Of a DNA stretch of 32,602 nucleotides, positions 4,436 through 32,602 are shown one piece after another. Numbering within the stretch: the first letter of the stretch is position 1; the number at the start of each line of letters is the position of its first letter. The notes beneath the pieces were generated by a model that worked only from the letters and a program-made list of their open reading frames with translations, had not been told where the DNA came from and made no database searches. The position numbers were made by a program, and so were the translations under genes. Origin of the DNA: Candidatus Yanofskybacteria bacterium RIFCSPHIGHO2_12_FULL_45_19b (GTDB lineage: Bacteria > Patescibacteriota > Minisyncoccia > 2-02-FULL-40-12 > IGHO2-12-FULL-4); assembly GCA_001794605.1 (NCBI GenBank), contig MGKD01000020.1, positions 1-32,602 on the forward strand. Direction: 5' to 3'.

Positions 4436-5509
4436 ATGGATCTATTGAATTATCGTCAGGCAGTCGAAGAGCTACTTACTACTACCGCTAAAGAGCACGG
4501 CTCGGACTTGCATCTCTCGCCGGGAGTTTACCCAACTATGCGCGTGGATGGTCGCCTAATTGCGCTTAATCAGCGGCCGATTCTGGATCCGCAGACGTTG
4601 GAGGGGTATGCGTTAGCCTTGTTGGGTGAAGAAAATAAGGAAAAATTTTTACAAGAAAAAGAGGCTGACCTAGCCTATACGGTTGGGGATAAAGCACGTT
4701 TTCGTATAAATATTTATTTAACACGTGGTCAGTATGCCATTGCTTGCCGCTTTATTCCTTACACTATCAAAACGATTGAGGAGTTAAAACTGCCCCCGAT
4801 TATTAAATTTTTTAGCAAGCTTTCCCAGGGTTTTGTTTTGGTGGTAGGGCCTAATGGTCACGGCAAATCTACTACCATGGCTTCTTTGATTGATTTAATT
4901 AACCATGAGCGCGTAGAAAAAATTGTTACCATTGAAGACCCGATTGAATATATGTTCATCTCTGACAAGAGTGTGATTGACCAACGTGAGGTCGGTAGTG
5001 ATACCAACTCCTTTAATGCCGCGCTGCGTTCTACTTTTCGTGAAAATGTTAATGTCATAATGGTGGGGGAGATGCGTGACTATGAGACTATTAGCACCGC
5101 GGTGTCGGCGGCCGAAACTGGCCACCTAGTATTTGCTTCCTTGCACACCAACAATGCTCCACAAACGATCGAGCGCATCATCGATAGTTTTCCACCCACT
5201 CAGCAACCGCAGATTATCTCTCAATTAGCTAATACTATCTCCGGAGTGATTTCCCAGCGTCTAATCCCTAGTGTCAATGGTGGACTGGTGCCCGCCGTGG
5301 AAATTATGATTGCTAATTCAGCGGTGCGTAATCTAATCCGTGAAAATAAAACTGAACAATTGGGCATCGTAATTGAAACTAGCGAAGACGCCGGTATGAT
5401 TTCATTAAACAAATCCTTGGCCGATCTAGTGCGCCAGGGGATTGTGGCGCGCGAGCAGGCCGAATTCTTCTCGCTCAATCCCAAAGAATTAAAAATCCTT
5501 CTTAGCTAA
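4436..5509 (+). CDS. pilT: Type IV pilus retraction ATPase PilT
   Basis: PilT is the ATPase that depolymerises the pilus. The 357-residue product has the PilT N-terminal domain with SDLHLSPGVYPTMRVDG near residues 22-38, Walker A GPNGHGKST at 138-146, DPIEYMF, and Walker B NVNVIMVGEMRD from 204. The N and H in Walker A differ from the common GPTGSGKST but keep the GxxxxGK[ST] consensus. It lacks the CxxC zinc site of PilB. It overlaps pilC by one base (TAATG). Retraction implies twitching, attachment or DNA uptake; which applies here cannot be seen. Confidence 0.96.
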   Translation: MDLLNYRQAVEELLTTTAKEHGSDLHLSPGVYPTMRVDGRLIALNQRPILDPQTLEGYALALLGEENKEKFLQEKEADLAYTVGDKARFRINIYLTRGQYAIACRFIPYTIKTIEELKLPPIIKFFSKLSQGFVLVVGPNGHGKSTTMASLIDLINHERVEKIVTIEDPIEYMFISDKSVIDQREVGSDTNSFNAALRSTFRENVNVIMVGEMRDYETISTAVSAAETGHLVFASLHTNNAPQTIERIIDSFPPTQQPQIISQLANTISGVISQRLIPSVNGGLVPAVEIMIANSAVRNLIRENKTEQLGIVIETSEDAGMISLNKSLADLVRQGIVAREQAEFFSLNPKELKILLS

Positions 5510-12850: not shown

Positions 12851-12899
12851 CCAACAGCAAAAAGTCCGCCTAACTAGGCGGACTTTTTGCTGTTGGCTA
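12848..12899. terminator. Bidirectional terminator hairpin shared by two convergent genes
   Basis: A perfect 23-bp stem with loop TAACTA (12871-12876) contains an A5 run on one arm and a T5 run on the other. It includes the TAG stop of the upstream gene (12848-12850) and the stop codon plus the last seven sense codons of tgt (ANSKKSA). It can end transcription from both sides. Confidence 0.9.
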
Positions 12900-19897: not shown

Positions 19898-20866
19898 ATG
19901 TACGACGTTATCACCATTGGTTCGGCGACCCGCGATGTTTTTTTGAGTGGCAAGGTGTTAGAAAAAAACACTTCTATTTCTGATAGCCAGATTACGTTGT
20001 CCTTGGGAGCAAAACTGGAAATGGAGAAAATCGTTTTGACTTCTGGTGGGGGAGCTACTAATGCCGCTGTTACCTTTGCGCGCCAGGGCATGAGGGTGGC
20101 CTGTCTAGGGGTGGTGGGGGATGATCTGGATGGACAGGAGATTATCACTGAGCTTGAGCATGAAGGGGTTGTCACCGATTTAATACAAAAACACCGGGAC
20201 GATCACACTGGCTACTCAACTATTTTGGTCCATCCCAAAGGTGAACGGGTGATCTTGAGTTACAAAGGCGAAGGCCAGCACTTTGATGCGACCAATATTC
20301 CTCTAAAAAAACTGGAGGCCACCTGGTTTTATATCAGCTCAGTTGGCGGTAACAGTAAACTTCTTAGTGAATTGTTTGAACATGCAAAAGCTAATAATAT
20401 TAAAATCGCCTTTAATCCTGGCCAAAAAGAGCTGGAACTTGGTTTAGACCAGTTGGCACTGTTTTTAAAACCGTTGGCGGTACTCACGCTTAATCGTGAA
20501 GAGGGGGCAGGTTTAGTGAGTTTGCCAGGTGCCACCGCCGCAGAGGTTTTGGATAAATTGGCTCCATTGTCAGATGGAATAATCATCGTGACTGATGGAG
20601 TCAATGGAGCAACCCTGCATCACACTGATGGCAGTCGCTATTTTGCTCCTGTGCCGGATTCGCCGGTAGTAGAACGTACCGGAGCAGGCGATGCCTTTGC
20701 CTCGGGTTTTGTGGCAGAACACCAGCACGCGGGTGACGTGGTTAAAGCATTACAGTTTGGAACGGCTAATGCCTCATCAGTGGTAACCCAATTTGGTGCC
20801 AAGGCGGGAATATTAAAAAAAGATAATTGGGGCGGGTGGCCCTTGGTAAAAGTTATTAAAAAATGA
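19898..20866 (+). CDS. PfkB-family carbohydrate kinase (candidate phosphofructokinase)
   Basis: PfkB/ribokinase enzymes phosphorylate sugars or sugar phosphates with ATP. The 322-residue protein has both signatures: GGGATNAAVTFARQG near residues 50-64 and ERTGAGDAFASGF near the C-terminus with the catalytic Asp in GAGD. The N-terminus MYDVITIGSATRDVFLSG fits the family. Substrate cannot be read from sequence. The neighbours rpiB, rpe and class II aldolase favour a sugar phosphate, possibly fructose 6-phosphate, which would supply the aldolase, but ribose or another pentose is possible. Confidence 0.88.
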   Translation: MYDVITIGSATRDVFLSGKVLEKNTSISDSQITLSLGAKLEMEKIVLTSGGGATNAAVTFARQGMRVACLGVVGDDLDGQEIITELEHEGVVTDLIQKHRDDHTGYSTILVHPKGERVILSYKGEGQHFDATNIPLKKLEATWFYISSVGGNSKLLSELFEHAKANNIKIAFNPGQKELELGLDQLALFLKPLAVLTLNREEGAGLVSLPGATAAEVLDKLAPLSDGIIIVTDGVNGATLHHTDGSRYFAPVPDSPVVERTGAGDAFASGFVAEHQHAGDVVKALQFGTANASSVVTQFGAKAGILKKDNWGGWPLVKVIKK

Positions 20867-20897
20867 TGAAGTCCCGATAATCACACACTCTTGTCAG

Positions 20898-22160
20898 ATG
20901 CCAAAAACCTACGAAAAATTAAGCCAAATTTTAGGGCCTAAAGCCGAGCTTTTTGAACAGTTGGACGCTCGGATGTCCGCCTTATCGGGCAAGGCCTCAG
21001 TTTTTAGACATGTCTTAGAAGAGGGCGAGACGGCGGCTAATACTACCCTGGAACGTTTTGGTTTAACCTCTGAACAGCGCACAGCAGAGAATGTTTATAC
21101 TACTTTAACCAACCGCTTAACTGAACTTGATGCGGTGCTCTATCAGTATCTTGGTCAGCCTAGTCTGCTTGACCCGGCTAGTTGCGAAAAGATGCTAACC
21201 ACTGCTTTAGAGTTGGCCCAGCCACCGCAAGGATTTTTCATCAAAGAAGCCAAAGCTATCACGATGCTAGAAGCTAACCCGCCACAAAAATTGCTGGAGC
21301 ATATGGGCTATACCAATATTCGCGAGTTGGTAGAAAAGGAGGGATTGGTGTCAGTGATGGGAGCGCTACGCTTTGTGCAGGACAGCGCCTGGATGCACAA
21401 TTTTTTTGATCAGGCTTATAGCGACTTAATCGCGAGCGATTTTGAGGAACGAGCGGTACAAATTAAAATTCTTGACGCGAAATGGTTGGGCGAAACCGGT
21501 AAATTTGTTGAACACAAGTTTCATAATCTCAGTCACCTCAAAGAGTGGGGGATAATTTTTATTGTGCCACTAGAAATCGATACCCCCGGCGAAATGTTGC
21601 GTGTATTTTCGCTCCTGCTCCACTATTTAAACGAAGTACCGTTTTATTCCAGCCTCTTCCAGCGTTTTGCTAACCGTTCAGATTTTGCTGGCTGGGTTAA
21701 ATCGCTTTTGCGGGGTGATGTTTTAAGCGTTGAGCAGATTGCTAATAAAAAATTGGATTACGACTGGCTAATTATTCAACGTTACTTGGCCAAGGATGAT
21801 AGTAATGACCCTCGTCTCTTTCTTCCACATGTCAATCCGGAGACGATACATTGGCATCGGGTGGGAGAAAATTTCACGCGACTGAAACCATTAATTGGTG
21901 CCACTGGAGAGTATTTTGACGTTTGGCACAATCTGGATTGGGTAGCGGGGTGGTTTAATTCTTCTGCTACTACGACCGCTCAGTTGGTGAGTTTCAATAT
22001 TATTGATTTAGTGATGTCGCTGGTAGATCAAAACAAAAAGCGTTATCTTTATCATCAGTTTGAGGCGCTGTGGAATAAACTTTTCATTGCTCACCTGGGC
22101 AAAGAAAAACTAGACCAGCTAATTTCCGAACGGATTATCGACGGCTACATTAAATTTTGA
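20898..22160 (+). CDS. Uncharacterised 420-residue protein between PfkB kinase and aldolase
   Basis: I do not recognise this family. The protein is soluble, with no signal peptide or membrane segment, mostly alpha-helical, and rich in aromatic residues (several Trp, Tyr and Phe clusters such as WMHNFFDQAYSDL and EYFDVWHNLDWVAGWF). A central segment has an IIFIVPLEIDTPGEMLRVFS-type beta-strand and helix. It lies 31 bp after the PfkB gene, and its TGA stop overlaps the aldolase ATG (TGATG), so it is translationally coupled to the aldolase. A role in central carbon metabolism is inferred from this coupling only. Confidence 0.85.
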   Translation: MPKTYEKLSQILGPKAELFEQLDARMSALSGKASVFRHVLEEGETAANTTLERFGLTSEQRTAENVYTTLTNRLTELDAVLYQYLGQPSLLDPASCEKMLTTALELAQPPQGFFIKEAKAITMLEANPPQKLLEHMGYTNIRELVEKEGLVSVMGALRFVQDSAWMHNFFDQAYSDLIASDFEERAVQIKILDAKWLGETGKFVEHKFHNLSHLKEWGIIFIVPLEIDTPGEMLRVFSLLLHYLNEVPFYSSLFQRFANRSDFAGWVKSLLRGDVLSVEQIANKKLDYDWLIIQRYLAKDDSNDPRLFLPHVNPETIHWHRVGENFTRLKPLIGATGEYFDVWHNLDWVAGWFNSSATTTAQLVSFNIIDLVMSLVDQNKKRYLYHQFEALWNKLFIAHLGKEKLDQLISERIIDGYIKF

Positions 22161-23020
22161 TGGATACACTTAAACAATATCTAGCCAAAGCTAAAACCGA
22201 ACACTGGGCGGTAGGGCATTTTAATTTTTCTACCGCCGAACAATTGAGGGCAATTGTTGAGGCGACTAGTGACCTGAAGGCCCCGGTGATGGTGGCCACC
22301 TCAGAAGGCGAAGCAAAATTTGTTGGTTATGAGCAGGCGGTGGCATTAGTGAAATCTTATCAAGTCGAAGGACATGTGGTTTGGCTAAACGCCGACCATC
22401 ACCATTCTTTTGCGTCATGCAAAAAGGCCATCGATGCCGGTTATGACACAGTTTTGATTGATGCTTCTAAATTGTCACTGGAAGAAAATATCACTTTAAC
22501 GAAACAGGTGGTTGATTATGCTCACTCAGTGAACCCGATGATGTCAGTAGAAGGGGAGCTGGGCTATTTGCGTGGTGCATCAGAAGTGCAGGAAAAGATT
22601 GAAATTAATTCTAATGACTATACTCAACCGGAAGCGGCAAAAGAGTTTGTTGTTGCTACTGGAGTAGATCGTTTGGCAGTGGTCTTTGGCAACATTCATG
22701 GCATTGTTACTGAACAAAGAGAAGCTTTAAACCTTGAACATTTGGGCAGTATTATCGAAGCCGTACCGGATACCAATCTGGTGCTACATGGTGCTTCCGG
22801 GCTATCTGACAACGACATTGCTAACGCCATTGCTGCCGGTGTCTGTAATGTGCATATTAATACCGAACTGCGACTAACTTTCCATGACTCTTTAATGGCC
22901 ACCCTACACAATGACCCTACCCAGTCTACTCCGTATAAATTTCTTGCTCCTAGTTTGGAGGCTATGAAAGAATTGATCAAAGCCAAAATCGTTCTTTTTG
23001 GCTCCGCTGGCCGCCTCTAG
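22160..23020 (+). CDS. Class II fructose-bisphosphate aldolase family protein
   Basis: Class II aldolases use zinc to split fructose 1,6-bisphosphate into triose phosphates. The 286-residue TIM barrel has WAVGHFNFSTAEQL, D79 and H80 in NADHHHSF (general acid and zinc ligand), VEGELGYLRG, GNIHG and LVLHGASGLSDNDI with the remaining zinc ligands. Length is normal. The ATG overlaps the upstream TGA; a TTG one codon earlier is not preferred. The sequence places it in the aldolase superfamily, but tagatose or another sugar bisphosphate cannot be excluded. Confidence 0.92.
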   Translation: MDTLKQYLAKAKTEHWAVGHFNFSTAEQLRAIVEATSDLKAPVMVATSEGEAKFVGYEQAVALVKSYQVEGHVVWLNADHHHSFASCKKAIDAGYDTVLIDASKLSLEENITLTKQVVDYAHSVNPMMSVEGELGYLRGASEVQEKIEINSNDYTQPEAAKEFVVATGVDRLAVVFGNIHGIVTEQREALNLEHLGSIIEAVPDTNLVLHGASGLSDNDIANAIAAGVCNVHINTELRLTFHDSLMATLHNDPTQSTPYKFLAPSLEAMKELIKAKIVLFGSAGRL

Positions 23021-23074
23021 ACAAAAAGCGTTATTTAGATTAGTATTAAGCCTCAATATTGAGTCAATTATTCT

Positions 23075-23779
23075 ATGAAAAAGATTACTCTAGGAGCAGA
23101 AACTCGTACTCAGGTTGGCAAAGGCCTAGCCGCTTTGCGCATGGCTGAGGTTTTACCGGCGGTAGTTTATGGTCAAGATTTTCCCTCCCAGTCAATTAGC
23201 GTCAAGTTAAAAGACTTCGCTGAGGCTTATAAGCAGGCGGGAGAGTCTAGTTTGGTTTATCTTGAACTGGGCGAGCAATCTCTGCCAGTGATTATTAGTG
23301 ATGTGTCTAAAGATCCGGTTTCGGATCTCTTTATGCACGCTGATTTTCACAAGGTCAGTCTAAAGGAAAAAGTAAAAGCCGAGGTACAGCTGGTCTTTAC
23401 GGGTGAATCACCAGCGGTTAAGGAGTTGGCCGGTATTTTATTGAAGAATCTTAATGCTATCGAGGTAGAGGCACTGCCACAGGATTTACCACACGAAATT
23501 TCCGTTGATATTTCTAATCTTAAGACTTTTGCCGATCACATCATGGTCAAAGACTTGATCTTGCCCAATGGAGTTACGGTTGAGTCAAGCCCAGATGAGG
23601 TCATTGCGTTAGTCCAGGAGCCGATCTCACAGGAGAAACTAGATGAGGGATTAGCGGCCGAATCTACCACTACCCCAGAAGAAGTAGAGGTTATCAAGCG
23701 TCCCGGTGCCGATGTTGAAGTTGGCGTTGAGCCAGCTGCAGGTGAAACCAAACCCGAAGTCAAAAAAGAGGAGAAGTAA
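23075..23779 (+). CDS. rplY: Ribosomal protein bL25 (CTC / TL5 form)
   Basis: bL25 binds 5S rRNA in the large subunit. The 234-residue protein has the L25 domain first (TRTQVGKGLAALRMAEVLPAVVYG, then VIISDVSKDPVSDLFMHADFHKV), followed by the CTC-type beta-barrel domain (HEISVDISNLKTFADHIMVKDL) and an acidic, lysine-ending tail (about 195-234) typical of this long form. It is 54 bp after the aldolase and ends 2 bp before the stop of a convergent gene, with no terminator hairpin between. Confidence 0.93.
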   Translation: MKKITLGAETRTQVGKGLAALRMAEVLPAVVYGQDFPSQSISVKLKDFAEAYKQAGESSLVYLELGEQSLPVIISDVSKDPVSDLFMHADFHKVSLKEKVKAEVQLVFTGESPAVKELAGILLKNLNAIEVEALPQDLPHEISVDISNLKTFADHIMVKDLILPNGVTVESSPDEVIALVQEPISQEKLDEGLAAESTTTPEEVEVIKRPGADVEVGVEPAAGETKPEVKKEEK

Positions 23780-23781
23780 CC

Positions 23782-24276
23782 CTACTTCAAATAAGCCCGA
23801 TATTTGGCTAATTGGCTGGGGGTTAATTTTTGAGCGGCAGTAATTGCTATTAAAATATTGTCCGGATTGAATTCGAGCTTAGTCCCTGCAATCAATTGAT
23901 CGGCGGGGACTTTTGCTGCCAGAAGGTTTTCGGCATGCAATTTTTGTTCTGGGCTTAAATTAATGTCTGGGTTGGCGGTTAGATATAACGCTAAAGCGTG
24001 TCTGGCAACCAAAGTTTTACTATCGCCCTTGTTTATAGAGATAGTCATGAAGTCTATAAATGGAGTAGGCGATAGGGTTTGATTAGCGGTGTCCGCGGTC
24101 TGCTGGCTCGGTCGGTTTAGATAGGAGCCAATTATTAATAACAGTATCACTAACAAGGCCGTCGGTAACACCCACTGCCAGTTGGTATTTAGCCAGCTTT
24201 TCAACTGTCTGCCCCAACCGGGTCGAGGTTCAAAAATTGGTCCACTGGCGCTATATTTTTTTATTTCGCTCTCCAT
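23782..24276 (-). CDS. Membrane-anchored protein of unknown function, possibly LysM-like
   Basis: This 164-residue protein has a cytoplasmic N-terminus, one membrane helix near residues 34-52 (WVLPTALLVILLLIIGSYL), a serine/threonine/proline-rich linker, and a C-terminal domain with the pattern DSKTLVARHALALYL, LSPEQKLHAENLL, then KLEFNPDNILIAITAAQ and LTPSQLAKYRAYL. From memory, a similar pattern occurs in a recurring CPR protein with a degenerate LysM-like fold; I cannot confirm that here. Its ATG follows the prfA stop with no gap, so it is the third gene of the rpmE-prfA unit. Confidence 0.75.
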   Translation of the reverse strand: MESEIKKYSASGPIFEPRPGWGRQLKSWLNTNWQWVLPTALLVILLLIIGSYLNRPSQQTADTANQTLSPTPFIDFMTISINKGDSKTLVARHALALYLTANPDINLSPEQKLHAENLLAAKVPADQLIAGTKLEFNPDNILIAITAAQKLTPSQLAKYRAYLK

Positions 24277-25155
24277 TTATTTGGCGGTTTGTAGGGCTTC
24301 AATTACATCTTCCAGGTGGCCATTCATAATATTGGCCAAGTTGCCCCAATTTTCTTTAATACGATGATCGGTCAGGCGGTCTTGGGGGAAGTTGTAGGTA
24401 CGGATCTTTTCTGAGCGATCGCCGCTACCAATTTGTTCACGCCGGTTGGCACCCATCTTTTGTTCCTCTTGTTCACGTTGAAAACCCGCCAGCTTGGCGC
24501 GTAGCACCGAAAGGGCGCGCTCGCGATTCTGATTTTGGGAGCGCTCCTCTTGCGAGCGCACCACTAAGCCAGAAGGTTTATGTAAAATACGTACAGCGGT
24601 CTCGACTTTATTAACGTTTTGTCCCCCAGCGCCACCGGCGCGTGAAAAAGTAATCTCTAAGTCATCTGGTTTAAGCACAAACTCTGCCTCAGTTACTTTT
24701 GGTAAAACTGCTACCGTGGCGGTGGAGGTGTGGATGCGGCCACTTTTTTCGGTTTCTGGAACACGCTGTACTCTATGCACCCCACTCTCCCAGCGCAGTT
24801 GTTTAAAAATCTGCTCACCCTCCACTTCGGCTGTGATAATTTTGTAGCCACCCAGCGAATTTTGGTTATAGTCTAAGACCTTAACTTGCCAACCTTGGGT
24901 AGTGGCGTATTTCTTGTACATGTTAAATAGATCAGTAGCGAAGTGGGCCGCTTCGTCCCCACCGGTACCAGCGCGAATTTCTAAAATTACTGCATTGGTA
25001 GCAGCATCAGCGTCGCCCCCCGATTCTTGGAGTTTTTTAATTTGGGCGTAGCGCTTGCTTAATTCACCCACCCGGCGGTAGTCGCTAGCAATGGCCGGAT
25101 CAGATAGTTTAGCAGTGATCTCGGTTAGTTCTTGTTCTAGCTCCTCCATGGACAT
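24277..25155 (-). CDS. prfA: Peptide chain release factor 1 with shortened domain 1
   Basis: RF1 reads UAA and UAG and triggers peptide release. The 292-residue protein has the recognition segment [18 protein letters not shown] (PxT tripeptide as PET), the catalytic GGQ at residues 177-179 ([10 protein letters not shown]), and [15 protein letters not shown]. In E. coli RF1 the GGQ is near 233-235 and the protein is about 360 residues. The missing 55-60 residues all fall in the second half of N-terminal domain 1, after [11 protein letters not shown]. The rpmE stop 12 bp upstream excludes a longer start. Codon recognition and catalysis should be intact. It lies between rpmE and a membrane protein gene. 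Confidence 0.93.
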
Positions 25156-25167
25156 GGAATTGGGGAG

Positions 25168-25428
25168 TTACTTAGCTTTGGCTTTTTTGACCGTCTTCTT
25201 GGTTATTTTAGAGTCTTGTTTAATTTGACTTTTTTCGGCGCGTTTGCGGAACTTATCGACACGACCACGCGTATCTAAAATCTTCTCCTTGCCAGAGTAA
25301 AAAGGATGACAATTAGAACAAATTTCCACCTTGAGTTCAGGTAGGGTGGAACCAGTGGTCCAGCTTTGGCCACAAGCACAGCTGACCTTCGCTTCTGGAT
25401 AATAGGTTGGGTGCAGGCCCTTTTTCAT
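25168..25428 (-). CDS. rpmE: Ribosomal protein bL31, zinc-binding form
   Basis: This is a large-subunit protein bridging to the small subunit head. From the ATG at 25428 it is 86 residues, [15 protein letters not shown], with zinc ligands C17, C19, C37 and C40 (the C+ type) and [12 protein letters not shown]. The lysine-rich tail after residue 60 extends beyond the usual length of about 70. A TTG at 25464 would add 12 residues but lies 3 nt from a -10-like TATACT, so the transcript should start after it; the ATG also matches the conserved family start. First gene of the rpmE-prfA unit, divergent from nusA. Confidence 0.93.
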
Positions 25429-25467
25429 ACGCCCAAGCTTAACCGATTTGGTGGTTTTCGTCAACCC

Positions 25468-25473
25468 AGTATA
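25468..25473 (-). promoter_or_regulatory. -10 element of rpmE
   Basis: TATACT on the minus strand predicts a start near 25461 and a leader of about 33 nt before the ATG at 25428. A TTGATC lies 19 nt upstream (25493-25498), so the -35 is weak. Confidence 0.5.
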
Positions 25474-25510
25474 ATCACTTTGAGCTATACCGGATCAATC
25501 TTAGCTGAAT

Positions 25511-25538
25511 TTGACAAATTGCTCTGAGGGGGTATAAT
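25511..25538 (+). promoter_or_regulatory. Consensus promoter upstream of nusA
   Basis: TTGACA (25511-25516), 16 nt, then TATAAT (25533-25538) is a perfect consensus pair and the best promoter in the window. Transcription should start near 25545, about 70 nt before nusA, and runs directly into the hairpin at 25557. Confidence 0.85.
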
Positions 25539-25556
25539 GCACTTAGTAAGGTTGAT

Positions 25557-25582
25557 GCTCGCCAGGTGCGAGCGCTTTTTTT
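25557..25582 (+). terminator. Intrinsic terminator between the nusA promoter and nusA
   Basis: GCTCGC (25557-25562), loop CAGGT, and GCGAGC (25568-25573) are followed by GC and seven T (25576-25582). On this strand it can only act on transcripts from the promoter at 25511, which would end after about 35-38 nt. It is therefore a candidate attenuator or the end of a very short RNA. Confidence 0.8.
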
Positions 25583-25604
25583 AGAAATTTTAGCATAAAG
25601 AGTG

Positions 25605-25610
25605 TAAAAT
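25605..25610 (+). promoter_or_regulatory. Second, weaker nusA -10 with leaderless spacing
   Basis: TGTAAAAT contains a -10-like TAAAAT that ends 7 nt before the nusA ATG at 25618. It lies after the terminator, so it could give an uninterrupted leaderless nusA mRNA. Confidence 0.45.
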
Positions 25611-25617
25611 AATAAAC

Positions 25618-26850
25618 ATGATTGATACCAAACAATTTTTGTCGGCCATCCAACAGATTGCCGAAGAGAAGGGGATCCCGAAAGAAAAGATCGTTGAAAC
25701 GATCGAGGACGCGATTGCCGCCGCCTATAAGCGTGATTATGGCGAAAAGGGTTGGATTGTACGCTCCCAACTTAATGCCGATGATGGTGATATTAAGGTC
25801 TTCCAGATAAAGTACGTCGTTTCTGGGGTGGATGAGGAAGGCTACTTAACGGGCGAACTACCACAAAAAGTTGAGAAAGAAAAAGAAATTACCCCAGTTA
25901 ATCCCGGCGAGGAGGTTAAGATTAAATACAGTCCAGAAAAACACATCCTGTTGTCAGAGGCACAAGCCATAGATAAAAAATTGCAGGTGGGCGATGAACT
26001 GGTTACTCCGCTTGAGACCAAAACCGAGTTTGGTCGGATTGCGGCCCAAACCGCTAAGCAGGTAATTATCCAACGTTTACGCGAGGTAGAACGTGAGGCA
26101 ATTTTTAATGAATTTAAAGGTCGCGAGGGTGAGGTGGTGAGTGGTTTGGTACAGCGCCGTGAAGGTCCACTGGTCTATATTGATCTTGGTCGCACCAACG
26201 GTCTGCTTTTGGGTACCGAACAGTTGCCCAACGATAACTATCGCTTAGGCCAACGTTTGCGTTTCTATATTATGCGCGTTGAGGAGTCTCAACGTGGTCC
26301 GGCGGTGTTGCTATCACGGACGCATCCCCAGTTGGTAGCACAACTGTTTGCTCTAGAAGTACCAGAAATTGATTCCGGTAGTGTAATTATTAAAACTGTC
26401 GCGCGTGAAGCTGGCTCACGTTCGAAGGTGGCAGTCACCTCGCAAGAAGACGGAGTAGACCCGATTGGTTCGTTGGTTGGTCAACGGGGAGTCCGTGTCC
26501 AAACCGTGATTAATGAGTTGGCGGGTGAGAAGATTGACATCATTGAGTGGAGTGAGGATCCAATTAGATTTATTACTAACGCTTTATCGCCGGCTAAAGT
26601 ATCTGAGGTAAAAATATTAGATACTGATAACCACCATGCTCTAGCGGAAGTTAATGATGATCAGTTCTCTTTGGCGATCGGTAAGCGTGGTCAAAATGTT
26701 CGCTTGGCGGCCAAGTTAACCGGCTGGAAAATTGATGTCCGTTCACCGCAGGAGGAGATCTCTTCTGATAAGGCAGAGGAGGAAATTGTAGAGGAGCTTA
26801 AGGCAGAAACTAGGACCGAGGAACCAGCTGGGACAACTGTAGTAGAGTAA
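25618..26850 (+). CDS. nusA: Transcription termination/antitermination factor NusA
   Basis: NusA binds RNA polymerase and RNA, modulating pausing, termination and antitermination. The 410-residue protein has the N-terminal polymerase-binding domain (about 1-130, including EKIVETIEDAIAAAYKRDYG), the S1 domain (GREGEVVSGLVQRREGPLVYIDLG), KH1 with SRTHPQLVAQLFALEVPEI and KVAVTSQEDGVDPIGSLVGQRGVR, and KH2 with FSLAIGKRGQNVRLAAKLTGW. An acidic tail follows; the extra C-terminal repeats of E. coli NusA are absent, as in most bacteria. It leads a run with the trigger factor-like and cysteine desulfurase genes. Its leader carries a promoter-terminator pair that NusA itself could influence. Confidence 0.96.
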   Translation: MIDTKQFLSAIQQIAEEKGIPKEKIVETIEDAIAAAYKRDYGEKGWIVRSQLNADDGDIKVFQIKYVVSGVDEEGYLTGELPQKVEKEKEITPVNPGEEVKIKYSPEKHILLSEAQAIDKKLQVGDELVTPLETKTEFGRIAAQTAKQVIIQRLREVEREAIFNEFKGREGEVVSGLVQRREGPLVYIDLGRTNGLLLGTEQLPNDNYRLGQRLRFYIMRVEESQRGPAVLLSRTHPQLVAQLFALEVPEIDSGSVIIKTVAREAGSRSKVAVTSQEDGVDPIGSLVGQRGVRVQTVINELAGEKIDIIEWSEDPIRFITNALSPAKVSEVKILDTDNHHALAEVNDDQFSLAIGKRGQNVRLAAKLTGWKIDVRSPQEEISSDKAEEEIVEELKAETRTEEPAGTTVVE

Positions 26851-26862
26851 GTAGCCAAAAAT

Positions 26863-27846
26863 ATGGAACACAAAATAACCGCGCGAAAAGGCGAGCGCTT
26901 AGAACTGACAGTTGAACTAGGTAAAAATGACCTGGAAAAATATCTAACTCAAGCAGAACAAAGACTGGCTCAGCAAGTCACTATTCCCGGTTTTCGTCCG
27001 GGCAAAGCGCCAGCGCGGGCCTTACACGAACATCTGGGTGACGCCGCTATCTTAGAGGAAGCGCTTAAGCTAGCTCTAAGTGGGAGCTTGGACCAAATTG
27101 TGGCTGAGGAAAAACTAGATGTACTACGTACTGCCGACTTGAAGATTAAAGAAAACACTGCCGAAAAACTAGACTACGAAGTAGTGTTGACAGTCTTCCC
27201 GGAAGTTAAACTGGGGCAGTATAAAGATCTGAAAGTGACTCGTCCGGAAATCACTGTTAGTGAACAAGAAATAGACGAAGCAGTTGAATATATTAAAAAA
27301 GCTAACGGGCAAAATCCCGCGGTGGATTCAACAACTACTAAGCCATTGAATTTGCCAACTGACATCCGCGAAAAACTGAACGTGGCCATTAGACAAGACA
27401 AAGAACGTGAGGCTAAAGAAAAGTACCGTCTCTTGGTGCTAGATCAAGTGGTAACTAATTCTGAGTTGGCACCATCAGCGGAAATGATTGATAGTCAACT
27501 AGAGGCAATGGTCGGGGAGCTGAAGCACAGCTTATCACACCAGAATTCTACGCTCGAACAGTATTTGGAAAAAATCAAAAAGAGTGAAAAGGAAATGCGA
27601 AACGAATGGCGTCAACGGGCGGAACGGGAAATTCGTCATGCGCTAGTAATGCGGGCTATTGCGCAACAGGAAAACATCCGAGCCGATGAAGATTGGGTGC
27701 GTAAGGAAAGCGAAGTAGTATGGGGTAAATATTTTGCCGACTTACCAGCTGACAAACAACCCGAACCAGCCGCTCTGCGTAGTCAGATTCGTGAACGACT
27801 TTTAAGCGAGGCGATTCTACATTGGCTAGAGCAGGCTAATAATTAG
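26863..27846 (+). CDS. Trigger factor-like chaperone lacking the PPIase domain
   Basis: Trigger factor is the ribosome-bound chaperone for nascent chains. The 327-residue protein has the ribosome-binding N-terminal domain with the signature GFRPGKAP at residues 43-50, then passes (YKDLKVTRPEITVSEQEID) directly to the helical C-terminal chaperone domain (about 160-327). Full-length trigger factors are about 430 residues with a central FKBP-type PPIase domain of roughly 85-100 residues; none is present here. The holding activity should remain. It starts 12 bp after nusA and ends 2 bp before the cysteine desulfurase gene. Confidence 0.88.
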   Translation: MEHKITARKGERLELTVELGKNDLEKYLTQAEQRLAQQVTIPGFRPGKAPARALHEHLGDAAILEEALKLALSGSLDQIVAEEKLDVLRTADLKIKENTAEKLDYEVVLTVFPEVKLGQYKDLKVTRPEITVSEQEIDEAVEYIKKANGQNPAVDSTTTKPLNLPTDIREKLNVAIRQDKEREAKEKYRLLVLDQVVTNSELAPSAEMIDSQLEAMVGELKHSLSHQNSTLEQYLEKIKKSEKEMRNEWRQRAEREIRHALVMRAIAQQENIRADEDWVRKESEVVWGKYFADLPADKQPEPAALRSQIRERLLSEAILHWLEQANN

Positions 27847-27848
27847 CC

Positions 27849-29012
27849 ATGGCTAAAAAATTAAAATCGTCTTTAGTCTATTTAGACTATGCCTCTGCTA
27901 CGCCGTTAGCACCAGTGGTGCAAAAGGCGATGGTCAAAGCAGAACTAAATTGGGGGAACCCTTCTTCCGTACATCAGGTTGGCCAGTTGGCGCAGGTTGC
28001 TTTAGCTTCGGCACGCCGTCAGGTTGCTAAAATATTGGCCATTAAGCCAGAGGAGGTTATTTTTACTAGTTCCGGTACTGAGTCGGATAATTTGGCTCTC
28101 CTGGGGGTCGCTAAAACGCAACCAGCGGGGCAGATCATTGTTTCTGCCATCGAACATCCTGCCGTCATGGCGGTGACAGAATACCTGACTAAATTAGGTT
28201 GGGAAGTAGTTTGTTTGCCGGTTAACGAATTCGGACTAATTAGCGCCAAAGATTTAGCCGTCAAACTAACCGATAAAACTAGACTAGTTTCGGTGGCCTT
28301 AGCTAATGGTGAGATTGGTACGATCCAACCAATTCGCGAGATTTCCCAGATAATTAAAAAATGGCGTCTCCAGCACAATACCAGCTGGCCGGTTCTACAT
28401 AGTGACGTTTGTTCCGCCGCCGGCTATTTAAATATTCAACCGCATGCGCTGGGTGTCGACTTGATGAGTTTCAGCGCGCAAAAGATTTATGGCCCCAAAG
28501 GGATAGCGGTTTTGTATAAACGGGCCGATTTAGAACTCGAACCACTAGTCTATGGTGGTGGACAAGAACGTGGCTTACGCTCTGGTACCGAGAGTGTGGC
28601 GCTAGCTACTGGTATGGCTACGGCTTTGGCGTTAGCTATAAAACAACAGAAAAAGCAGTCGGTGCGTCTAAGTAAATTACGCGACTGGTTGATTGGTGAG
28701 ATTTTAAAACTTATCCCAAATAGTCGTTTGAATGGTGATTCGAAACAGCGTTTACCCAATAATATTAATATCTCTTTTTCTGGGGTGGATGGTGAACAGC
28801 TAGCATACGCTCTCAATCGTCAGGGGATTTATGTTTCCACCGGTTCAGCCTGTAGTGCTACCAAAAACGAAATTTCACCTGTGCTGAAGGCAATTGGTAG
28901 CCCAGCGGAGTGGGGGAACATTCGCATCACCCTGGGCAGAGAAACTACTAAGAAGGAGTTGCAACGTTTCCTGGGTAAACTGATAAGGATGGTGAACGAT
29001 TTTCATAACTAG
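27849..29012 (+). CDS. Cysteine desulfurase (NifS/IscS family)
   Basis: This PLP enzyme takes sulfur from cysteine for Fe-S clusters and tRNA thiolation. The 387-residue protein starts with the typical VYLDYASATPL, has TSSGTESDNLAL, HSDVCSAAGY, the PLP lysine K212 in SFSAQKIYGPKG, RSGTESVALATG, and the catalytic cysteine C335 in TGSACSAT. The residue before the lysine, usually His, is Gln here. No iscU or sufU gene is in the window, so a role in tRNA thiolation is as likely as cluster assembly. It ends the nusA run, 2 bp after the chaperone gene. Confidence 0.93.
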   Translation: MAKKLKSSLVYLDYASATPLAPVVQKAMVKAELNWGNPSSVHQVGQLAQVALASARRQVAKILAIKPEEVIFTSSGTESDNLALLGVAKTQPAGQIIVSAIEHPAVMAVTEYLTKLGWEVVCLPVNEFGLISAKDLAVKLTDKTRLVSVALANGEIGTIQPIREISQIIKKWRLQHNTSWPVLHSDVCSAAGYLNIQPHALGVDLMSFSAQKIYGPKGIAVLYKRADLELEPLVYGGGQERGLRSGTESVALATGMATALALAIKQQKKQSVRLSKLRDWLIGEILKLIPNSRLNGDSKQRLPNNINISFSGVDGEQLAYALNRQGIYVSTGSACSATKNEISPVLKAIGSPAEWGNIRITLGRETTKKELQRFLGKLIRMVNDFHN

Positions 29013-29020
29013 CTGTATTT

Positions 29021-29049
29021 GGCGTAGTATTTTTGAGTTGGTCCGTATC
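29021..29049 (+). repeat. Degenerate third copy of the R1 repeat
   Basis: GGCGTAGTATTTTTGAGTTG and the following GTCCGTAT match the first 28 nt of the repeat at 29750 and 30922 at about 21 positions. It lies 10 bp from the 3' end of the first methyltransferase gene. Confidence 0.6.
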
Positions 29050-29058
29050 ACTAGCAAT

Positions 29059-29745
29059 TTAGATAGCCTTACGGCCGTAAAGTATCAATTTAAAAAATCC
29101 GATTATGCCAAACAAGGCACGGTATATGAGGAAGCCAATATTTTCTAGGCGGTGCACTGCGGAGTTTTTCTCTACCTTTTCAAAACAGGTGATAGTATCA
29201 ACTAGTTGTGGGTTTTTGATTCTAGACGAAGTCAATAAAAGAATGGCCGTTACTAAATATGGCCCAGCAAAGTGTAAATGCCAGGAGTCGTGGAAAGCTA
29301 AAATTCCCCCGTTTACTACCTTTGGAAACCAAAGATTAAAATCCAATTTAACAAATTTATACCCATGATGACCATCAATAAAAACAAGCTCTACTTGATG
29401 TTTGAAGTTTTCTGCTGCGTTTTCTGAAGTATCTCTGACCGGTTCAATATAGTGAGCAACCCCAGCCCTATCTATGTTTTGTCTAAACTCTTCGAATGTA
29501 TCAATTTTGCGAAATCTTTTTTGATGTTCAGGACTGCCGACATGAGGGTCAATGGCAAAGATTTTAGCTTTATTCCCATCTTTCGAGCCATTGCCTAAAC
29601 AAATTGCAGACCGTCCTTTCCAGGAACCGATTTCCACGATTACGTTTTCTGCTTTGACTTTTTTTGCAGTGTTGTACAAAAAAAGGCCTTCCGCCCTTGT
29701 TAGCCAACCGCCAACATTTTCGGTTGCTTTTTTAAAATCAAACAT
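29059..29745 (-). CDS. Class I SAM-dependent methyltransferase (Methyltransf_24-like), copy 1
   Basis: The 228-residue protein has the SAM-binding motif I as VIVEIGSWKGRSAICLG (near residues 35-51), the acidic motif II as IFAIDPHVG, and FIDGHHGYKFVKLDFNLWFP followed by GGILAFHDSWH, the pattern of the Methyltransf_24/CmcI-like family. The C-terminus is hydrophobic (IGFLIYRALFGIIGFFKLIL) and may touch the membrane. Substrate is unknown; relatives often lie in sugar or cell-surface loci. It is about 73 percent identical by eye count to the gene at 31052, with equal length and no gaps. Confidence 0.85.
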   Translation of the reverse strand: MFDFKKATENVGGWLTRAEGLFLYNTAKKVKAENVIVEIGSWKGRSAICLGNGSKDGNKAKIFAIDPHVGSPEHQKRFRKIDTFEEFRQNIDRAGVAHYIEPVRDTSENAAENFKHQVELVFIDGHHGYKFVKLDFNLWFPKVVNGGILAFHDSWHLHFAGPYLVTAILLLTSSRIKNPQLVDTITCFEKVEKNSAVHRLENIGFLIYRALFGIIGFFKLILYGRKAI

Positions 29746-29748
29746 ACG

Positions 29749-29862
29749 TGGTGCAGTATTCTTGAATTAGTCCGAACGAAAATTCGGAAAGGTCGCGGCT
29801 TGTACTGAGCGAAGTCGAAGTGTGCCGAACCTCTGGCATGACAAGTTTTTCTTTGTCGGCAA
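29749..29862 (+). repeat. R1 intergenic block, copy 1
   Basis: The block begins TGGTGCAGTATTCTTGAATT and continues AGTCCGAACG, then AAAATTCGGAAAGG, forming a small hairpin TCCGAA/TTCGGA. It ends with AAGTTTTTCTTTG near 29842-29862. The same start and end occur at 30921-31051. Inside it, ACTGAGCGAAGTCGAAGT (29804-29821) resembles a REP-like sequence that I recall from many unrelated bacteria. Confidence 0.8.
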
Positions 29863-29879
29863 GTTCTTTGAAACTTTGA

Positions 29880-30035
29880 TTACTTGTTTGGACTTAATAA
29901 ATCATCGTGATAACTATCAAATTCCATATCGAAATCTTTATAGTTCTGAACTAATTCCTCATTTTCTATTATGTCCTTAAGTGCAATACACCTTTTTTCT
30001 TCACTGTCCTCGGTAAAGGTAACGCCAATGTTCAA
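29880..30035 (-). CDS. Possible small acidic protein downstream of tRNA-Lys
   Basis: A 51-codon frame on the minus strand begins with TTG at 30035 (first residues NIGVTFTEDSEEK) and ends at TAA (29882-29880). The product is acidic and hydrophilic (KDIIENEELVQNYKDFDM, then DDLLSPNK) with one cysteine. Composition looks protein-like and the frame fills most of the gap between tRNA-Lys and the R1 block. There is no ATG start and no recognised family, so it could be chance or a remnant. The remaining sequence of the 29746-30056 gap is the R1 block. Confidence 0.35.
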   Translation of the reverse strand: MNIGVTFTEDSEEKRCIALKDIIENEELVQNYKDFDMEFDSYHDDLLSPNK

Positions 30036-30056
30036 AATCTCTTATTTTTTACTTTG

Positions 30057-30132
30057 TGGTCCGCCCGGTAGGAGTTGAACCTACAACTTTCGCCTTAAGA
30101 GGGCGCTACTCTGCCAATTGAGTTACGGGCGG
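30057..30132 (-). tRNA. tRNA-Lys (anticodon CTT)
   Basis: A 76-nt cloverleaf: acceptor CCGCCCG/CGGGCGG, D arm ACTC/GAGT, anticodon loop CTCTTAA giving CTT, T arm GTAGG-TTCAACT-CCTAC, discriminator A and an encoded CCA. Pair 27-43 of the anticodon stem is a G-A mismatch. Its 5' end contains the stop codon of the upstream HTH gene. Confidence 0.95.
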
Positions 30133-30863
30133 TCTAAATTAACTGCTGAAGTTCTCTCTACCTTGGTAAGTAAATACCATCTTTTCTTAACTTGTTTAAC
30201 ATGAGGAGCAATATCTTTGAAGGCGGCCGCCAGCCAGCCAAAGATTTTATGTTTGTTATCGACGCTCTTAGGCACATAAATCTGGGCGGTACCGTAGTAG
30301 AGATTATTCTTTTTATAGTCCTTATTTACTGGTTTAACAAAAGATTTGCCGAAGTTCTTGGTTGGTATACCAGTGATTTGTGACCAAAATTTTTTTAATT
30401 TTAGATCATCTTGCTGGGAGTAAATATTCAACCTGATTTTTAATGTCTTAGGAGATATAGCAAAAATTGATTCAAACCACTTAACCATAAAAGCTATTAA
30501 ATAGGGATCGGAGTTGGTTACCTCGCAAGCTCCTTTTTTGCTACCTTCGGCCCAGTAAAGTGCTGCCCCTAGGAGCTGTCGAGCTACTCTTGGTAGGGGT
30601 AGATTAATTTCATCCTCTGCTTTTTTTAGAATTTCCCAAACCTCACGCTGGCGTCTTTCTTTTTGACTTTGTGCCCCACGAGATAGAAATAAAATACGTT
30701 TTGTATAGAGGCGTTTACGATGTTCTGGTTTGAGGGGGACTGACTTTAACCAGAGGCTTAGGCTACTCTTGGCGACTGGGATTTGCCGCATTATTTCTCC
30801 GTAGCTAAGACCTCGACTTCTCAATCTTACCGCTAGAGCCCGTTCTTTTATCTTGGCATCCAT
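30123..30863 (-). CDS. HTH protein with a possible LAGLIDADG-like domain, ending inside tRNA-Lys
   Basis: The 246-residue protein has an N-terminal helix-turn-helix (about 10-45: RLRSRGLSYGEIMRQI, then KSSLSLWLKSV), a basic linker, and a domain beginning LLGAALYWAEGSKKG followed by VTNSDPYLIAFMVKWFESIF. I associate the YWAEGSK and NSDP pattern with a widespread group that resembles intein-type homing endonucleases, but no activity can be claimed. Its last residues (DRP) and TAA lie within the acceptor stem of tRNA-Lys, a 10-bp overlap on the same strand. A -10-like TACAAT ends 6 nt before the ATG. Confidence 0.8.
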   Translation of the reverse strand: MDAKIKERALAVRLRSRGLSYGEIMRQIPVAKSSLSLWLKSVPLKPEHRKRLYTKRILFLSRGAQSQKERRQREVWEILKKAEDEINLPLPRVARQLLGAALYWAEGSKKGACEVTNSDPYLIAFMVKWFESIFAISPKTLKIRLNIYSQQDDLKLKKFWSQITGIPTKNFGKSFVKPVNKDYKKNNLYYGTAQIYVPKSVDNKHKIFGWLAAAFKDIAPHVKQVKKRWYLLTKVERTSAVNLDRP

Positions 30864-30869
30864 ACCAAG

Positions 30870-30875
30870 ATTGTA
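30870..30875 (-). promoter_or_regulatory. -10 element of the HTH gene, leaderless geometry
   Basis: TACAAT on the minus strand is followed by CTTGGT and then the ATG, a 6-nt gap identical to that of pilD, tgt and the RAYT. The transcript would probably include tRNA-Lys downstream. Confidence 0.5.
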
Positions 30876-30920
30876 CCGTACATAACAGATGGACTCAATA
30901 AGAAAGTTGATAAGTTGTAT

Positions 30921-31051
30921 TGGTGCAGTATTCTTGAATTAGTCCGAACGCATTTCGCCGCTTGCGGCGGCGAGGAATTCCCCCCCGCGAAAATTCGGAA
31001 AGGCGACGAAGCCGCACCGCTGACAATTTCAAGTTTTTCTTTGACAGCAAT
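30921..31051 (+). repeat. R1 intergenic block, copy 2, with a 39-bp internal insertion
   Basis: It matches copy 1 from TGGTGCAGTATTC to CCGAACG (30950) and again from AAAATTCGGAAAGG (30990). Between them are 39 extra bases (30951-30989) containing CGCCGCTTGCGGCG, a perfect palindrome, and a C-run. It ends with AAGTTTTTCTTTGACAGCAA directly at the 3' end of the second methyltransferase gene. This block fills most of the 188-bp gap. Confidence 0.85.
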
Positions 31052-31738
31052 CTAAACAACATTATGACCCTGAAACACCAATCTTAAAAATCCAGTTATT
31101 CCAAGCAAAGAACGATACATGAGAAAACCAATATTTTTTAAACGATCAAATAAAGAAGTTCTCTCGGTTTTTTCAAAGTATGTTATCGTGTCGACCAGTT
31201 TTGGATTTTTAATTTTTGATGAAAATAATAAAGCAGTTGCCGTTACTAGACCTGGCCCAATAAAATGCAAGTGCCAGGAATCGTGGAAAGCTAATAATCC
31301 GCCGTTCACTACTTTTGGAAACCATTGATTGAAATCCAATTTAACAAACTTATATTCATGACGACCATCGATAAAAATAAATCCAACCGGATAGTTAAAA
31401 TTTCTGACCGCATTTACAGACGTGTCTCTTATGGGTTCAATATTTTCAGCAATGCCTGCCCTGGTTATATTTTGTCTAAACTCTTCAAATGTATCAATTA
31501 TACCAAACTGTCTCTGATGTTCTGGATTACCAACATGAGGATCAATGGCAAAAATTTTAGCTTTATTTCCGTCTTTAGAACCATTGCCAAGGCAAATAGT
31601 AGACCTTCCCTTCCACGAACCTACTTCTACAATTACATTTTCGGCTTTAATTTTCTTGGCAGTATTATACAAAGAAAGACCTTCGCCCTGGGTCAACCAA
31701 CCACCAACATTTTTAGTTTTATTATTAAAGTCAAACAT
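31052..31738 (-). CDS. Class I SAM-dependent methyltransferase (Methyltransf_24-like), copy 2
   Basis: This is the paralogue of the gene at 29059. From the ATG at 31738 it is 228 residues and aligns without gaps from MFDF onward; a TTG start 33 nt upstream is rejected on that ground. Motifs are VIVEVGSWKGRSTICLG, IFAIDPHVG, FIDGRHEYKFVKLDFNQWFP and GGLLAFHDSWH. The catalytic-domain core is better conserved than the hydrophobic C-terminal tail. Base composition is noticeably AT-rich compared with the pilus region. Substrate unknown. Confidence 0.85.
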   Translation of the reverse strand: MFDFNNKTKNVGGWLTQGEGLSLYNTAKKIKAENVIVEVGSWKGRSTICLGNGSKDGNKAKIFAIDPHVGNPEHQRQFGIIDTFEEFRQNITRAGIAENIEPIRDTSVNAVRNFNYPVGFIFIDGRHEYKFVKLDFNQWFPKVVNGGLLAFHDSWHLHFIGPGLVTATALLFSSKIKNPKLVDTITYFEKTERTSLFDRLKNIGFLMYRSLLGITGFLRLVFQGHNVV

Positions 31739-31785
31739 GGAATTAAAAAATTTTCTTCCCCCAAAATCCAATACAAATTAGTCGC

Positions 31786-31825
31786 CGAGTCTCTCCTTCG
31801 TCGGGATAAACTCCGCGAGGCGAAC
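31786..31825. repeat. REP-like sequence upstream of methyltransferase copy 2
   Basis: The stretch from TCGCC to GGCGA encloses CCTTCGTCGGGATAAACTCC and has arms that can pair at its base. I recall similar sequences in CPR intergenic regions, but there is only one copy here. Confidence 0.35.
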
Positions 31826-31849
31826 CTTTCAAACTTGCAATTTCTTTTC

Positions 31850-31924
31850 TGGTGCGCCCGGAGAGAATCGAACTCCCATCCTCGGTTCCGAAGACCGGTA
31901 CTCTATCCGTTGAGCTACGGGCGC
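31850..31924 (-). tRNA. tRNA-Arg (anticodon TCG)
   Basis: A 75-nt cloverleaf: acceptor GCGCCCG/CGGGCGC, D arm GCTC/GAGT (one wobble), anticodon loop CTTCGGA giving TCG, T arm GGGAG-TTCGATT-CTCTC with one wobble, discriminator A and an encoded CCA. Confidence 0.95.
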
Positions 31925-31954
31925 TATAGCCTAATTAAATAACGAAACTAGCCA

Positions 31955-31986
31955 TAACACAACCCCACCGCGGCGGGGTTGTGTTA
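31955..31986. terminator. Hairpin between the 3D-domain gene and tRNA-Arg
   Basis: TAACACAACCCC (31955-31966) pairs perfectly with GGGGTTGTGTTA (31975-31986), 12 bp. It begins 3 bp after the stop of the 3D-domain gene in its direction of transcription. Only a weak T-rich tail follows, so termination strength is uncertain. Confidence 0.7.
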
Positions 31987-31988
31987 AG

Positions 31989-32573
31989 TTACGAGACAAT
32001 CTCGATTTTTACCTGTTTAACACCGAACTCTTTAGCGGCCTGACGAGTGGCAAACCAGAGGTCAATTTTATATTGGTAGCGTTTATTCATGCGATCTTCC
32101 ACCACGAAAGTTTTATCACCATATAGTTCGGGGATTTTGATTACTGTACCTAGCGGCAAGAAGTTTGCGGCTATAACGCCATCGCGTACATGCGTACCCA
32201 TAGCGGTGATAAACGGAGTATCATCTGTCTGGTCGGGGGTAGAAGAATAGGCTGAAGCCGGAACGGTATAGTTTACTGCTTTATTGTTTATGCTACGGCG
32301 TTGAGTAACCGTGCTTTGGGTGGCCACCACCGCAGTATCATTCACCAAAGATAAATTTTCGACAGCTTTCGGGGTTGGAGTCTCAATTTGACCAATACCG
32401 AAGCTATCATAGGCGCTAGAAACATATAGCAAGGTGGAGCTGTTTGTGGAGTCCTGGTTGGAGCCGAAAAGATTACTCCAAAAGGAGGCTTGGGCCGTGC
32501 TAACAGTAGCAATATTTAATAGGGTAATAACCGCGATAGTTAGGGCTAATTTGCGCTTGTTTAGAATGTTCAT
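31989..32573 (-). CDS. Secreted 3D-domain (RlpA-like barrel) cell-wall protein
   Basis: The 194-residue protein has a signal peptide (about 1-30, KLALTIAVITLLNIATVSTAQA), a serine/threonine-rich linker (about 31-100), and a C-terminal 3D domain (about 105-194) named for three conserved aspartates. Visible motifs are VPASAYSSTPDQTDDTPF, TAMGTHVRDGVIAANF, LPLGTVIKIP, VVEDRMNKR and KIDLWF. Such double-psi barrels occur in lytic transglycosylases and stationary-phase wall proteins, so a role in peptidoglycan remodelling is probable. No SH3 or LysM domain is present. It is the last gene of the window; the 29 bases upstream are AT-rich without a clear -10. Confidence 0.88.
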   Translation of the reverse strand: MNILNKRKLALTIAVITLLNIATVSTAQASFWSNLFGSNQDSTNSSTLLYVSSAYDSFGIGQIETPTPKAVENLSLVNDTAVVATQSTVTQRRSINNKAVNYTVPASAYSSTPDQTDDTPFITAMGTHVRDGVIAANFLPLGTVIKIPELYGDKTFVVEDRMNKRYQYKIDLWFATRQAAKEFGVKQVKIEIVS

Positions 32574-32602
32574 AGTGATTTAAAAAGCCTTTAAATAGGC
32601 CT

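Follow-up and report, generated by a model that had tools for sequence, protein, structure and literature searches.

A conserved promoter-proximal hairpin before nusA in Patescibacteria: a candidate attenuator that may respond to NusA

The nusA gene in the window (the whole 32,602-nt stretch of DNA analysed here) is preceded by a sigma-70-type promoter and, directly behind it, a terminator-type hairpin with a T-tract. The promoter and hairpin are conserved in the class and the layout in the phylum, and the proposal of a candidate attenuator before nusA, first made in a sequence-only reading of the window, is thus well supported. A functional promoter-proximal terminator before nusA is very likely on the sequence evidence. 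We consider it probable, though less firmly so, that the element is a promoter-proximal attenuator of nusA and autogenous through NusA, the effector being named by analogy with known leaders.

Results

The source assembly measures 0.6 Mb in 32 contigs. The closest named relatives of its NusA are Candidatus Yanofskybacteria, and we take the class of the window to be Paceibacteria (Parcubacteria) of Patescibacteria. The features around the start of nusA are collected in Table 1.

Table 1. Features at the nusA locus (window positions)
Feature	Position	Strand	Remarks
rpmE (L31), divergent upstream neighbour of nusA	25168..25464	-	
Sigma-70-type promoter of nusA, TTGACA-16-TATAAT	25511..25538	+	12/12 match; most relatives have TTGAC..TA...T in this position
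Start region and short 5' leader	25539..25555	+	transcription start ~25545, inferred from the -10
Terminator-type hairpin, TGCTCGC-CAGGT-GCGAGCG	25556..25574	+	occupies the place that GUCCGC-loop-GCGGGC has in relatives
T7 tract, predicted termination points	25576..25582	+	one C between stem and T7
AT-rich spacer up to the nusA start codon	25583..25617	+	length and sequence not conserved
nusA	25618..26850	+	Pfam NusA_N (5e-33) and NusA KH_5 (2.5e-29) above cut-off; KH_NusA_C and S1 below

The two promoter elements (TTGACA, 25511-25516; TATAAT, 25533-25538) are 16 nt apart and form the sole 12/12 sigma-70 site in 20000-32602 (12.6 kb), where the runner-up matches at 10/12. The scan found 30 promoter-like sites, with 19 expected by chance. 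The hairpin starts 17 nt after the -10 and ends 43 nt before nusA. Together with the T7 tract, it is the strongest terminator-like site in 20000-32602 and the only one there with a T7. In isolation, the hairpin folds with -10.3 kcal/mol (z -2.0). With transcription predicted to start at A25545, approximately 7 nt past the -10, the stem would begin near +12, and termination would give an RNA of approximately 36-38 nt. The sequence-only reading had described a perfect promoter followed by a GC hairpin and T7, which the sequence confirms; its estimates of a hairpin within about 20 nt of the start and a product of 35-38 nt agree with the predicted start. It had also proposed that a weak further -10 beside the ATG would supply a basal level. 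We rejected this site (TAGAAA-17-TAAAAT, 25582-25610), as chance alone should account for most sites that match at 9/12, as this one does, and it has no conserved counterpart in relatives.

The start region AAGGTTGAT is common to the window and the relatives L034, L038, and L007, and is similar in L035. The window stem has diverged from the consensus of the relatives; model R1 gives it 13.0 bits (E about 1), the fourth score in the window. The hairpin was assigned to the family by its position and by the shared start region. An Rfam search at the site gave no match.

Sequence upstream of nusA was taken from 130 loci, of which 125 were distinct after the removal of four duplicates and one truncated gene (L106). 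A joint caller, which looks for a sigma-70-like promoter and an ungapped hairpin 5-45 nt after the -10 and gives credit for tail T residues, was run on the upstream regions with thresholds at the 95% and 99% points of dinucleotide shuffles. In 108 of the 125 distinct regions, the promoter-then-hairpin layout scored higher than 95% of shuffles, and in 103 it passed the 99% point. It was called in 49 of the 50 regions of the closest set, which covers the family, order, and class of the window. As a control, the same caller was run on 269 other genes of the same loci, and 12% were positive. When the best promoter and the best hairpin were picked independently, they lay 5-45 nt apart in 87/125 regions with 18 expected (L106 is still counted among the 125 in this test). 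In a phylum-wide sample, the layout is present in 41 of 60 nusA upstream regions, 34 of them with high scores, and independent picks fall 5-45 nt apart in 34/55 (7.7 expected). Stems differ by group in the phylum, for example CCGGCCGGCAGGTCGG and GGTGGG..CCCACC. No joint call above threshold was obtained in 17/125 class regions and 19/60 phylum regions, partly because the caller demands an ungapped stem; several of the uncalled phylum regions (e.g. L217, L259, L266, and L276) show a hairpin and T-tract by eye. The sequence-only reading had named missing conservation of the hairpin or promoter as a point that would count against it. Both are clearly conserved, across the class and, in their arrangement, across the phylum.

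The gap between the -10 and the stem is narrow (median 17 nt, quartiles 12-26 nt), and the gap between the stem and the ATG is wide (quartiles 26-87 nt, range 2-205). The hairpin thus keeps its distance to the promoter rather than to the start codon, and this speaks for an element that acts on transcription. Low-complexity, repeat-like inserts (e.g. ataagccataagccataagc) lie between the hairpin and the nusA ATG in L018, L017, L030, and L016. In L020, L024, and L026, a very stable long hairpin follows the nusA promoter and the U-tract is lost.

The alignment of 37 hairpins, from which the window was left out, gives the stem G-U-C-C-G-C / G-C-G-G-G-C, with a U.G wobble in 26 and a U-A pair in 11. 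The stem shows compensatory changes in relatives. Its covariation score is 0.394 versus 0.205 in shuffles (reached by 0/500), and slid partners give 0.04-0.14; the A2 alignment was selected for the TCC core, so invariance there is partly by selection, whereas covariation at the other pairs is not. Across 58 genomes, the wobble stem GTCCGC-n-GCGGGC occurs at 65 sites, 24 of which are just upstream of nusA on the sense strand (approximately 0.01 expected). The perfect palindrome GTCCGC..GCGGAC has 76 sites, 3 of them at nusA, and only the wobble form is enriched there (Fisher p 6e-7). The stem sequence was rejected as a signature of nusA alone, because the perfect palindrome is a general stem in these genomes. 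Within the window itself, the perfect form (GTCCGCC..GGCGGAC, 12859-12888) stands between convergent genes as a bidirectional terminator. Terminating in both directions is the ordinary use of the perfect form, and the leader hairpin thus looks like one of the terminators of the lineage, usually slightly weakened. The pattern TTGAC-A...T-GTCCG, tried as a genome-wide signature, was too loose to inform. Three copies of GTCCGCTTCGGCGGAC, approximately 62 nt apart, were seen on contig 21 of genome G000 (5233-5373).

These observations bear on a rival reading, in which the nusA mRNA begins with a stabilizing or processing hairpin, or with a pause site, and not with a terminator. Such a role would fit the location of the hairpin, which in nearly every region is close to the 5' end predicted for the mRNA, and also the three loci that keep a long hairpin without the U-tract. 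The stretch right after the stem is, however, enriched in U in the relatives (mean 5.4 T in 9 nt versus 2.5 further downstream), and the same type of stem is the bidirectional terminator at 12859-12888. We therefore hold this reading to be quite unlikely and the terminator to be the better account.

The gene upstream of nusA, rpmE, is divergent, and the nusA hairpin is therefore not the rpmE terminator. Since prfA, also upstream, is on the opposite strand as well, nearly all sense transcripts that reach the hairpin should start at the nusA promoter. The claim that only transcripts from this promoter can meet the terminator holds to that extent, but polymerases reading through in antisense from farther upstream could also reach it. 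The hairpin was likewise rejected as the terminator of an upstream gene in the relatives, where the nearest upstream ORF is divergent in 74/120 cases. The upstream neighbours vary: many relatives have a divergent PilB/GspE-like ATPase, recognized by inspection of its sequence, in place of the rpmE-prfA pair of the window.

Two further observations concern the neighbourhood. A DnaA-box-like TGTGGA(T/C)AA lies 106-321 nt upstream of nusA in 21/130 loci (0.65 expected from shuffles; e.g. L009, L008, L030, and L023), in constant orientation and often with TTTGTAAA before it; it is absent in the window. On the minus strand of the window, two similar ORFs of approximately 230 aa (29059-29745 and 31052-31771; MFDF..NVGGWL..EGL) lie about 2 kb apart, apparently as a duplication.

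We also asked which gene the element follows. RimP (PF02576) gave no match in the 58 relatives or in 136 genomes of the phylum; the same search matched in 10/14 control genomes. The infB gene is away from nusA, on another contig, and the promoter with the GUCCGC hairpin is absent from 24 infB upstream regions. With RimP absent and infB elsewhere without the hairpin, the element travels with nusA. Upstream of infB in L132, L134, L136, L137, and others, TTTGTAAAAA is followed by an AAAATG(C/T)TA-like -10 very near the start codon. Promoters that close to the start codon suggest a short or leaderless infB mRNA.

No pairing of downstream sequence with the 3' arm of the hairpin exceeded shuffles over the set, and between the leader and the 5' arm, pairing is depleted (z -3.75). 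An outer pairing GATTGATTTT/AAAATCAATC in L033, shorter in its neighbours, was tried as an antiterminator and rejected, as such pairing is not above shuffles over the set. The median of 17 nt between the -10 and the stem leaves no room for a leader peptide. The leaders were tested as a leader-peptide attenuator or riboswitch, and neither a leader ORF nor a competing structure was found. An attenuator with a different effector, such as NusG, a ribosomal protein, or some other protein that binds RNA, is highly improbable: the element goes with nusA rather than infB, RimP is missing, and the search for an antiterminator, as a small-molecule or tRNA sensor would need, found none. In its favor, NusA is named by analogy and the stem sequence differs between classes.

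Discussion

NusA helps RNA polymerase to stop. In the mechanism we propose, polymerase would start at approximately 25545, transcribe about 12 nt, and then form the hairpin and U-tract. There it would either stop, releasing an RNA of 36-38 nt, or read on into nusA. NusA itself may make termination at this hairpin more frequent; plentiful NusA would then shut nusA down, and scarce NusA would let the polymerase pass, a negative feedback.

The conservation evidence fits equally well with a fixed throttle, in which a constant share of transcripts is terminated and a strong promoter yields a low level of nusA without feedback. The terminator is the only regulatory element seen, and the stem core is also in use elsewhere in these genomes. 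We nevertheless regard a throttle as unlikely. A weaker promoter would suffice for that purpose, the layout is kept across the phylum despite changing stem sequences, and NusA feeds back on its own leader in Bacillus (PMC12288461). The sequence-only reading had offered a small RNA as an alternative, with the 35-38 nt product acting in trans. The predicted terminated RNA is indeed discrete in size; its loop and 5' tail, however, are not conserved in the relatives, and only the stem, the U-tract, and the place before nusA are. This alternative falls away almost entirely.

For autogenous attenuation, a wider form can be put forward tentatively, as a possibility we would not bet on: a phylum-wide nusA element of Patescibacteria, not in Rfam, which would pack a promoter, a NusA-responsive hairpin, and a terminator into approximately 75 bp. 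The share of polymerases that halt at about 40 nt would directly report free NusA, and class-specific stems would be recognized by the RNA-binding domains of NusA. To our knowledge, there has been very little work on how members of the candidate phyla radiation regulate their genes, and the literature searched contained no paper on a nusA leader from Patescibacteria. If correct, autogenous control by NusA would be one of the few sequence-recognizable feedback circuits in these reduced genomes, kept although rimP is absent and infB is elsewhere. The element would also offer a minimal system of roughly 75 bp for measuring NusA-dependent termination in vitro.

The closest precedents are in Bacillus subtilis and in the rimP-leader. 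In B. subtilis, nusA belongs to a rimP-nusA-infB operon whose leader measures approximately 180 nt (PMC2965389), and NusA is known to stimulate termination in its own 5' leader (PMC12288461, citing Mondal 2016). As there, an intrinsic terminator in the leader would set the transcription entering nusA, here as judged by sequence and conservation. Unlike in B. subtilis, nusA here has its own promoter and no rimP, and the hairpin lies approximately 12 nt from the predicted start. NusA dependence is established for the B. subtilis leader, whereas for the window element we infer it.

For the rimP-leader (Rfam RF01770; Naville and Gautheret 2010), protein control was proposed, with NusA as the best candidate effector (PMC2965389). 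The window element similarly has a short conserved terminator hairpin and U-tract and no visible antiterminator. The lack of an antiterminator together with a leader too short for a peptide is the pattern behind Naville and Gautheret's argument for protein control (PMC2965389). The rimP-leader precedes the rimP-nusA-infB operon; here, RimP is absent and infB is on another contig. The two candidate effectors of the rimP-leader are thus separated, and the hairpin stays with nusA. The rimP-leader stem is GGGc(...)gCCC, whereas the class consensus GUCCGC/GCGGGC has the inverse orientation; the window has GCTCGC/GCGAGC, which does not match the rimP-leader stem, and some other members of the phylum have GGTGGG/CCCACC. 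The RF01770 covariance model placed 0/136 phylum genomes above its gathering score of 47 bits. With no genome past the cut-off, the operon context absent, and the stem orientation inverse in the class, the window element is, as far as its sequence tells, one that would work like a NusA-controlled leader terminator but stands outside the Rfam rimP-leader family. An autogenous role for NusA is plausible, given the precedents in B. subtilis and the rimP-leader and an element that stays with nusA.

A third system is the autoregulation that gamma-proteobacteria impose on Nus factor genes through BoxA and NusB-NusE, which combines translational repression with Rho-dependent termination on suhB (PMC5725501). 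It shares with the element proposed here a feedback on the gene of a Nus factor. It differs in means, as the window element is an intrinsic-terminator hairpin placed at the promoter.
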